Positions 2,870 through 28,580 of a DNA stretch of 64,000 nt are shown one piece after another. The stretch is from contig NZ_AUBQ01000004.1 of assembly GCF_000429325.1 (NCBI RefSeq), forward strand, positions 124,001 through 188,000, read 5' to 3'. The position numbers were made by a program, and so were the translations under genes. The stretch is from Fundidesulfovibrio putealis DSM 16056 (GTDB lineage: Bacteria > Desulfobacterota > Desulfovibrionia > Desulfovibrionales > Desulfovibrionaceae). The stretch's first letter is position 1, and each line of letters starts with the position of its first letter. Under the pieces are notes generated by a model, which was given only the letters and a program-made list of their open reading frames with translations, searched no databases and had not been told where the DNA came from.

Positions 2870-2895
2870 AAAGGCCCGGCGTTAACCGGGCCTTT
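2870..2895 (+). terminator. Rho-independent terminator after the EcsC gene
   Basis: A perfect 10-bp inverted repeat, AAAGGCCCGG and CCGGGCCTTT, is separated by a 6-base loop. It starts 18 bases after the EcsC stop codon and ends in TTT. It closes the plus-strand operon before the opposing tRNA gene. Confidence 0.8.
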
Positions 2896-2913
2896 GAAGG
2901 AAACCAGGCACCC

Positions 2914-2934
2914 AAAAGCAACCGTTACCGTTGC
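2914..2934 (-). terminator. Probable terminator of tRNA-Ser(GGA)
   Basis: On the minus strand, GCAAC and GTTGC pair around a 7-base loop and are followed by TTTTGGG. It lies about 60 bases beyond the 3' end of the tRNA. A second GC-rich palindrome (GGCGGC/GCCGCC at 2959-2976) lies between them. The short stem makes this a moderate call. Confidence 0.45.
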
Positions 2935-2991
2935 TCCCTCTCGGGCCTGGCGGGGTTGGCGGCGCCTTCGCCGCCTGGCTTCCTTGAAATG

Positions 2992-3085
<94 letters not shown>

Positions 3086-27422: not shown

Positions 27423-27554
27423 GTGACGTTCTCGAAATGTGTTCATACAATGTATGAACCTAAACGAAGAGAACCATTTGTTTTGCTTTTGAAAAATATG
27501 TTGCTGTTTGTCAAGAACGCGACACCGACGCCAACCGGCTTGGTACGGTCGTGA
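27423..27554 (+). CDS. Unannotated small protein between clpA and aat, 43 residues
   Basis: A GTG one base after the clpA stop, with AAAGG 6 bases before it, opens a 43-codon frame that ends in a TGA overlapping the aat GTG (GTGA). An ATG at 27450 would give 34 residues. The peptide is basic at the start (MYEPKRREPF) followed by a short hydrophobic stretch (VLLLKNMLLFVKNA). A segment at 55470-55547 encodes a related peptide: 16 of 26 residues are identical, without gaps, and many changes are silent or conservative. No function can be assigned. Coupling at both ends argues that it is a real gene. Confidence 0.65.
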   Translation: MTFSKCVHTMYEPKRREPFVLLLKNMLLFVKNATPTPTGLVRS

Positions 27555-28279
27555 TAACCTTGCTGGGCTCCACCATCGGATTCCCGGACCCGGAGACCGC
27601 CGACCCAGGCGGTCTCCTGGCCGTGGGGGGAGACCTGTCCGTGCCTCGGCTCGTTGAAGCTTACCGCCGGGGCATCTTTCCCTGGTACAACGACGAGCAC
27701 CCCATCCTGTGGTGGGCTCCGGACCCCAGGCCCATCCTGCGCCCCAAAGACCTGACGCTCGATTCGCGTTTTCGCCGTTACCTTCGCAACCATCCTTTCC
27801 AAGTGAGTGTTGATACCGATTTCCAGGCGGTCATCAGCGCCTGCGCCGTGATGTATCGGCCCGGACAAGGCGGCACCTGGATAACCGACGATATGATCCG
27901 CGCCTACGTGCGCCTGCATCTGGCCGGATACGCCCACAGCGTGGAGTGCCGCCTGGACGGGGAGTTGGTGGGCGCGATCTACGGCGTAGCAGTGGGGCGG
28001 GCCTTCTTCGGCGAGTCCATGTTCCATGAGGAGGGCAACGCATCCAAAGTCGCCTTCGCACATCTGGTCTGGCTGCTCAGGGACCTGAAATACCCGTTCA
28101 TGGATTGCCAGCAGGCCACACCGCACGTGATGCGATTCGGAGCGCGCGAGGTGCCGCGCAGGCAATTCACCCGCCTGGTGCGGGAGGCCACGGCCATGGA
28201 GCATGAGCGCGAAGGCTGGCGCGCCCCTGCCTGGTGGAACGATCCGGCTGCCAGAAAGGAGGCCCTGCGTGAGCGTTGA
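27551..28279 (+). CDS. aat: Leucyl/phenylalanyl-tRNA--protein transferase (Aat)
   Basis: Aat adds Leu or Phe to proteins with N-terminal Lys or Arg, making N-degrons for ClpS-ClpA. The 242-residue protein shows the family features GGLLAVGGDL near residue 20, YRRGIFPWY near 37, WITDDM near 114, YGVAVGRAFFGESMF near 144 and the TPHVMRFGA segment near 195. The GTG start lies in a GTGA overlap with the small upstream ORF and has no ribosome-binding site of its own, so its translation is probably coupled. The last 11 bases overlap the next gene. Confidence 0.95.
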   Translation: MITLLGSTIGFPDPETADPGGLLAVGGDLSVPRLVEAYRRGIFPWYNDEHPILWWAPDPRPILRPKDLTLDSRFRRYLRNHPFQVSVDTDFQAVISACAVMYRPGQGGTWITDDMIRAYVRLHLAGYAHSVECRLDGELVGAIYGVAVGRAFFGESMFHEEGNASKVAFAHLVWLLRDLKYPFMDCQQATPHVMRFGAREVPRRQFTRLVREATAMEHEREGWRAPAWWNDPAARKEALRER

Positions 28280-28502
28280 GAAGATCGCATTGGATGTTCG
28301 CGGCAAGTGTTGAGGCGTGGGCGCGGAGGTCGGGTGGCACCTCCGGTTCGTGCAGGCGGGTGTTGTCGATATTTGGGCCGATCCGGGCCAGGCGGCTCTT
28401 TTCGAGGAACTGGCCGCCACGTTCGGCCAGTGGCGCATGGAGCGCGAGGACGTGGACGGCGTGATGCGCTTTCGTTTCGTCAGGCGGAGCAGCGGGGGCT
28501 GA
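28269..28502 (+). CDS. TusA/SirA-like protein with predicted selenocysteine at residue 15 (in-frame TGA at 28311-28313)
   Basis: AAGGAGG (28256-28262) lies 6 bases before a GTG start inside the end of aat. The frame reads MSVEKIALDVRGKC, then TGA, then 62 more codons to a TGA at 28500. The whole protein of 77 residues matches the TusA layout: strand 1 and LDVRG motif, helix 1, the VVDIWADPG strand and turn, helix 2, and the DGVMRFRFVRR end. In TusA the catalytic cysteine is the third residue after the conserved Gly (LGLRC); here that position is the TGA. The CPxP prolines are replaced by UGVG. A SECIS-like hairpin follows the TGA. I infer selenocysteine insertion, giving a vicinal Cys-Sec pair. 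TusA relatives carry sulfur or selenium between proteins. Confidence 0.75.
28324..28345 (+). promoter_or_regulatory. Predicted bacterial SECIS element
   Basis: CGGAGGT and ACCTCCG form a perfect 7-bp stem closing the 8-base loop CGGGTGGC. The stem begins 10 bases after the TGA, and 17 bases separate the TGA from the loop. The known bacterial SECIS rules ask for a short upper stem, a loop of 3-14 bases with a G in the first two loop positions, and roughly 16-37 bases between TGA and loop; all are met here. It would be bound by SelB. Confidence 0.7.
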
Positions 28503-28534
28503 GAGCTGTTGTTGGGGGTATGTTGAGCAAGAAG

Positions 28535-28580
28535 GCCTCCGGCGGCCAAAGGGACAAGTCCCTTTGGAATCCCCTATAGT
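28535..28580. repeat. Dispersed palindromic repeat, copy B
   Basis: The copy begins GGCCTCCGGCGGCC and ends GGAATCCCCTATAG, with a 9-bp hairpin CCAAAGGGA/TCCCTTTGG around CAAG. It starts 32 bases after the TusA-like gene and ends before the DUF1848 stop codon. In this position the hairpin could also end the clpS operon transcript. Confidence 0.85.

Follow-up and report, generated by a model that had tools for sequence, protein, structure and literature searches.

Does the TGA that interrupts a short reading frame behind aat in Fundidesulfovibrio putealis DSM 16056 stand for selenocysteine (Sec), and what kind of protein would then be made? The window analysed here is a stretch of 64,000 nucleotides from this member of the Desulfovibrionaceae (assembly GCF_000429325.1, contig NZ_AUBQ01000004.1, positions 124,001 to 188,000 of the forward strand), whose genome of 4.7 Mb has a completeness rating of 99.99%; positions below count from the first letter of the window. 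A preliminary description, made from the letters and their open reading frames without database searches, had proposed a TusA/SirA-like selenoprotein at 28269-28502. Our analysis finds the selenoprotein family to be real and, so far, to occur only with Sec, which is paired with a vicinal Cys; its predicted fold resembles that of TusA, of which it is not a member by profile. Decoding of the TGA as Sec, the TusA-like fold and the site of Sec15, taken together, form an explanation that we rate at about 85%.

A reading frame conserved across the TGA

The putative selenoprotein gene (28269-28502, plus strand) has the layout originally proposed for it. The ribosome-binding site AAGGAGG (28256-28262, plus strand) is followed, after a six-base spacer, by a GTG start at 28269 within the end of aat, by 14 codons, by the TGA (28311-28313, plus strand) and by 62 further codons up to a TGA stop at 28500-28502. 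The product would comprise 77 residues, with Sec15 adjoining Cys14.

A read-through search with the joined protein found TGA-bearing relatives in 53 of 99 related genomes. All 53 hold a copy with the in-frame TGA; one of them (G025) has a stop-free copy in addition, which was left out of the alignment of 53 proteins. The positive genomes belong to three families of the order (f1, f2 and f4), and no match was found in the searched genomes of families f3, f5 and f6. Asp9, Cys14, the TGA and Leu25 are invariant in the alignment, the TGA being in register in 53 of 53 members, so that the Cys-Sec (CU) pair suggested for the window's copy is shared by all 53 aligned members. Around it lies a conserved core (residues 8-26, 28290-28346, plus strand), which reads LDVRGKCUGVGAEVGWHLR in the window and LDLRxKCUGVGxEVGW(Y/H)LR as the family consensus.

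The sequence downstream of the TGA evolves as coding sequence. Each of the 11 pairs examined shows nonsynonymous divergence (dN) below synonymous divergence (dS), and for ten of them the proposed frame has both the highest dS and the lowest dN of the three frames; the eleventh pair, L059/L062, consists of nearly identical sequences. GC-rich DNA yields many chance frames, and a second frame (28307-28579) is also open in this region, which would speak for a chance frame, a pseudogene or a sequencing error behind a normal stop. Yet the same TGA recurs in 53 genomes of three families, selection acts on the proposed frame and most members keep their start sites; conservation in practice refutes such an origin, and together with dN/dS it equally excludes an ordinary stop after a 14-residue peptide. 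The preliminary description had asked for homologues with a conserved TGA, and had named an error in sequencing, or homologues in which an ordinary stop is followed by no conserved frame, as outcomes that would undo its proposal. Since TGA and following frame are kept in 53 of 99 genomes, neither is an explanation.

A 38-base pattern around the TGA, derived from the family itself, has a single occurrence in the window; 100 shuffles yielded none. When one genome per species (84,980 species) was scanned, the exact TGA-bearing pattern matched 45 contigs, at least 12 of which come from genomes already among the 53. Forty are titled Desulfovibrio and related genera, Desulfovibrionaceae or Desulfovibrionales, and five (L100, L109, L123, L127, L131) unclassified (delta)proteobacteria; strains titled Solidesulfovibrio, Nitratidesulfovibrio, Pseudodesulfovibrio and Fundidesulfovibrio are included. 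The exact pattern had no match in viral contigs. A pattern scan for the core with Cys-Cys returned 17 matches, none of them a relative, and neither these searches nor the tree described below revealed a member of the Sec clade with Cys at the Sec site. In a phylum sample of 395 genomes, with at most 14 candidates scored per genome, the profile found six, namely the source genome of the window and five others from its family; this sample is a weak test of spread, because f2 and f4, known carriers, gave no match in it.

The hairpin after the TGA and the selenocysteine machinery

A putative selenocysteine insertion sequence (SECIS) hairpin occupies 28324-28345 (plus strand), starting about 10 bases 3' of the TGA. 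Its stem, 28324-28330, pairs with 28339-28345 around the loop CGGGTGGC (28331-28338), which lies 17 bases past the TGA. The sequence here includes GGAGGT-CGGGTGGC-ACCTCC; the fold energy is -10.3 kcal/mol. Among 97 extracted sequences (76 distinct), eight named pairs are formed in 89.8% of cells against 85.6% after shuffling, the covariation score reaches 0.176 (0.115 in shuffles), and cells changed on both sides number 33 against 11.3, none of 500 shuffles reaching the observed value in any of the three. Shifting the 3' arm by one to three bases reduces pairing to 36.5-61.8%.

Judged from sequence, the clearest sign of the hairpin is the choice of Tyr codon, which is matched to the residue ahead of the loop. 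After a pre-loop Ile, the post-loop Tyr is encoded by TAT in 18 of 18 cases, and after a pre-loop Val by TAC in 19 of 22 (p 1.2e-8, inflated, like all p-values for the hairpin, by relatedness of the sequences). Tyr is encoded either way and the protein therefore does not demand this choice; synonymous codons co-vary so as to keep the pairing. Within the hairpin region, Ile is ATA in 16 of 21 and Leu is CTC in 69 of 76 cases, the background in 90 pooled neighbouring open reading frames being 16% for ATA and 18% for CTC. The bacterial SECIS rules, as given in the accessible portion of PMC13188914, are obeyed by the window's copy and by 67 of the 76 distinct sequences. Rfam has no match at the selenoprotein locus.

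The genome is equipped to read such a codon. The preliminary description had suggested looking for selA, selB, selC and selD, and all are present: selA, selD, a selB (L033) scoring 366 bits against a cut-off of 242, and a tRNA-Sec with anticodon TCA. As a positive control, selD itself (L146) has an in-frame TGA, in the context AAGUAAK. Among the 99 related genomes selA was found in 84, comprising 52 of 53 gene-positive and 32 of 46 gene-negative ones (Fisher p 9e-5, uncorrected for kinship and completeness).

If a near-cognate tRNA or leaky termination allowed the TGA to be passed with no selenium involved, a small amount of protein carrying Trp or another residue would result. This reading finds some room in that the evidence for selenium is indirect here. 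It is nevertheless very improbable in view of the invariant Cys-TGA pair at what would be the catalytic position of TusA, the hairpin that obeys the SECIS rules, the Sec machinery and the co-occurrence with selA. On these comparative grounds, the TGA at 28311 is almost certainly read as Sec.

Predicted fold, TusA and a Cys sister family

The AlphaFold model of the protein has TusA topology (beta-alpha-beta-alpha-beta-beta), and its best match in the PDB is a SirA/TusA protein. The Sec site of the model lies at the TusA catalytic position, directly ahead of helix 1, in agreement with the earlier placing of the TGA at the catalytic Cys of TusA; on this model, a TusA-like fold of the 77 residues is highly probable. 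The protein resembles TusA/SirA-like carriers (PF01206; Escherichia coli TusA, 3lvj, and the SirA-like 3hz7) in size, in the predicted order of strands and helices, in a reactive chalcogen ahead of helix 1 and in a first strand of the LD.xG type. It differs from them in having Sec for Cys, an extra preceding Cys and no CPxP motif; throughout the 53 members Sec is followed by G, H or R, never by P. No Pfam or NCBIfam model matches any of these members, and comparison of the family with TusA by hhalign gives 9.6% and 7.7%, so that assignment to TusA by profile fails; searching PDB sequences with the Sec and Cys profiles returned nothing relevant. The claim of a TusA layout throughout thus survives for the predicted structure and the place of the reactive residue, and is not borne out by the family profiles or the CPxP motif.

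In the window's own genome, PF01206 matches only a yedF gene (L001, 1492-2112, TIGR03527 above cut-off) and a TusA-like domain that fronts a longer protein (L002, 1426-2172) and lacks the CPxP active-site Cys; a stand-alone canonical TusA was not found by this search. YedF shares with our family a TusA-type domain and a link to selenium use, and where a SirA-like protein appears in the accessible text of the selenium literature it is YedF, with Cys (PMC2432076, PMC5322559, PMC4607533). YedF, however, has an added DsrE-like domain and Cys, whereas the family described here is a single domain of 77 residues with Sec and no NCBIfam match. Four genomes (G010, G021, G059 and G070) hold both a stand-alone TusA match and the TGA-bearing selenoprotein, and the latter is therefore not a simple substitute for TusA. 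The same vicinal Cys-Sec pair occurs in SaoL, SaoC, HgcA, MbdU, KCU-star and the CopZ-type form 2, which, as far as the available part of PMC13188914 describes them, belong to other protein families, none of them TusA/SirA.

A stop-free relative (L145, 1453-1749, in genome G034) provided the entry to a Cys-containing sister family. Of 198 related genomes, 32 gave a match to it, G041 being counted only through its TGA copy; 20 loci were fetched (L148-L167) and 18 aligned, L151 and L158 being omitted. The sister proteins have no in-frame stop and carry Cys in the Sec column, within a CGLVP motif; the Cys preceding that column is not kept among the 18 aligned members. Both families are homologous across 77 columns (hhalign 97.5%, E 8.7e-12), and a tree of 53 Sec and 18 Cys rows, built from few columns, separates them cleanly (100/100). 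The Cys homologues sought by the preliminary description are absent from the Cys-Cys core scan and exist in a distant sister clade. Two scanned sister members have no Pfam or NCBIfam match, and seven searched genomes of the window's genus contain no match to the sister family.

Most sister genes lie downstream of mnmE: an mnmE-like gene stands upstream in 14 of 20 loci, and for the copy in L156 an NCBIfam match confirms that it is MnmE. The tRNA base on which MnmE acts, U34, is also the one thiolated to mnm5s2U34 with sulfur delivered through TusA. According to the accessible text of PMC2854127, TusA supplies the sulfur for mnm5s2U34. This adjacency, with TusA and MnmE sharing one tRNA base, hints at a role in tRNA thiolation for the Cys sister protein, a lead that we do not extend to the Sec protein.

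Several observations weigh against the combined explanation. PF01206 matches none of the 53 members, leaving no profile link to TusA, and other IF3-like folds (Smr, Alba and RPP20/25) score near TusA in the structure comparison. The window's hairpin by itself is unremarkable (z -1.5 and -1.65), RNAalifold returned no consensus structure for the family hairpin, and two of five pair measures are no better than shuffles (39 and 383 of 500). Nine of the 76 distinct sequences break a SECIS rule. The G required in the loop is the only rule that L030 and L108 break; in L010, L029, L056, L066, L069 and L071 the hairpin folds in a different register with a 4-base loop, and here the SECIS may have shifted register with the protein unchanged; L059 fails without this alternative 4-base-loop hairpin. 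One gene-positive genome, G032 (84% complete, 290 contigs), has no selA match, and the family counts ignore kinship. Finally, Sec is assigned by comparison rather than directly, and the carrier role discussed below is a proposed one.

Gene neighbourhood, possible function and significance

The usual order in relatives is nitroreductase, metallo-beta-lactamase-fold protein, selenoprotein, FMN-reductase-type flavoprotein and ComF-like protein, with rplU and rpmA beyond; the names were taken from representatives by family models, ComF scoring below its cut-off. Among 61 loci left after removal of four repeat contigs, the flavoprotein gene is downstream in 43 of the 57 with enough sequence, and the metallo-beta-lactamase-fold gene lies no more than 1.9 kb upstream in 34 of 54. 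Five loci of the window's genus (L073, L074, L075, L111, L122) have aat upstream instead, and eight (L085, L095, L096, L107, L112, L118, L120, L121), including the four named Solidesulfovibrio, a MoeA-like molybdenum-cofactor gene, so that no single neighbour is universal. In the window, aat (leucyl/phenylalanyl-tRNA-protein transferase; 27551-28279, plus strand; PF03588, Leu_Phe_trans, E 5e-68) ends with its stop codon at 28277-28279 and shares 11 bases with the selenoprotein gene, downstream of which a DUF1848 gene (Pfam) lies on the minus strand. Elsewhere in the window, a bacterial small signal recognition particle RNA adjoins a tRNA-Ser (GGA) at 2892-3085, minus strand.

The function of the protein may lie in sulfur or selenium transfer or in redox chemistry. 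SelA, SelB, SelC and SelD would decode the TGA at 28311 as Sec, directed by the SECIS hairpin some 10 bases on, and Sec15 would come to lie ahead of helix 1, after the invariant Cys14, at the position of the persulfide-carrying Cys of TusA. At this N-terminal end of the helix, Sec15 would be a strong nucleophile. From a partner, possibly the FMN-reductase-type flavoprotein encoded next in most relatives, its selenolate could accept an atom of sulfur or selenium or else an oxidising equivalent, and Cys14 could then close a Cys-Sec bond, releasing the atom or electrons to an acceptor. In TusA itself, Cys19 accepts sulfur from the IscS persulfide (accessible text of PMC2854127). That atom transfer is the job of the Sec protein has, in our judgement, even odds.

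Alternatively, the protein is a selenoprotein whose Cys-Sec pair serves in redox reactions or in binding metal(loid)s, the TusA-like fold being merely a shared scaffold. TusA requires one Cys only, many relatives have nitroreductase and FMN-reductase-type flavoprotein genes as neighbours, and the CU selenoproteins catalogued in the available part of PMC13188914 include metal- or organometal-linked ones. Against this, Sec would occupy, in the model, the sulfur-acceptor position of TusA, and the Cys sister family retains one Cys there while the preceding Cys is not kept; we place this alternative somewhat short of even odds. More tentative still is the specific proposal of a Sec-only TusA-fold carrier, whose selenolate would hold sulfane sulfur or selenium for discharge by the invariant Cys, working beside TusA or YedF in Desulfovibrio-type bacteria, with the Cys sister tied to tRNA-U34 modification through mnmE.

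The preliminary description knew of no selenoprotein of this exact type, and we likewise found no published TusA/SirA-type one in the openly readable literature, preprints and supplements being outside that scope. The 2026 selenoprotein catalogue (PMC13188914) lists 119 families in its accessible text; no TusA/SirA type is among them, and neither name occurs there. The words TusA and SirA are likewise absent from the available text of a 2022 review (PMC9312934) and of deep-Sep (PMC12013277), the family is not shown in the accessible 2006 selenoprotein lists for Desulfovibrio vulgaris and D. desulfuricans (PMC1794560), and the three Desulfovibrio cases in the corresponding part of a 2007 stop-codon scan (PMC1914089) include none of TusA-like type. 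Routine searches will probably overlook the family, given its short proteins, the lack of a Pfam or NCBIfam model for it and the absence of a close Cys homologue for Cys/TGA pairing; the homology step of deep-Sep may filter out such cases, as its authors state in the accessible text (PMC12013277).

The family described here is a new addition to the bacterial selenoproteins, built on a scaffold that resembles TusA. Sec at the active site of a TusA-type fold raises the direct question of whether selenium chemistry can operate on the scaffold of a sulfur carrier. It also prompts one to ask why 53 genomes retain Sec at this site without a switch to Cys. The presence of the family in strains of Solidesulfovibrio, Nitratidesulfovibrio, Pseudodesulfovibrio and Fundidesulfovibrio makes it testable.
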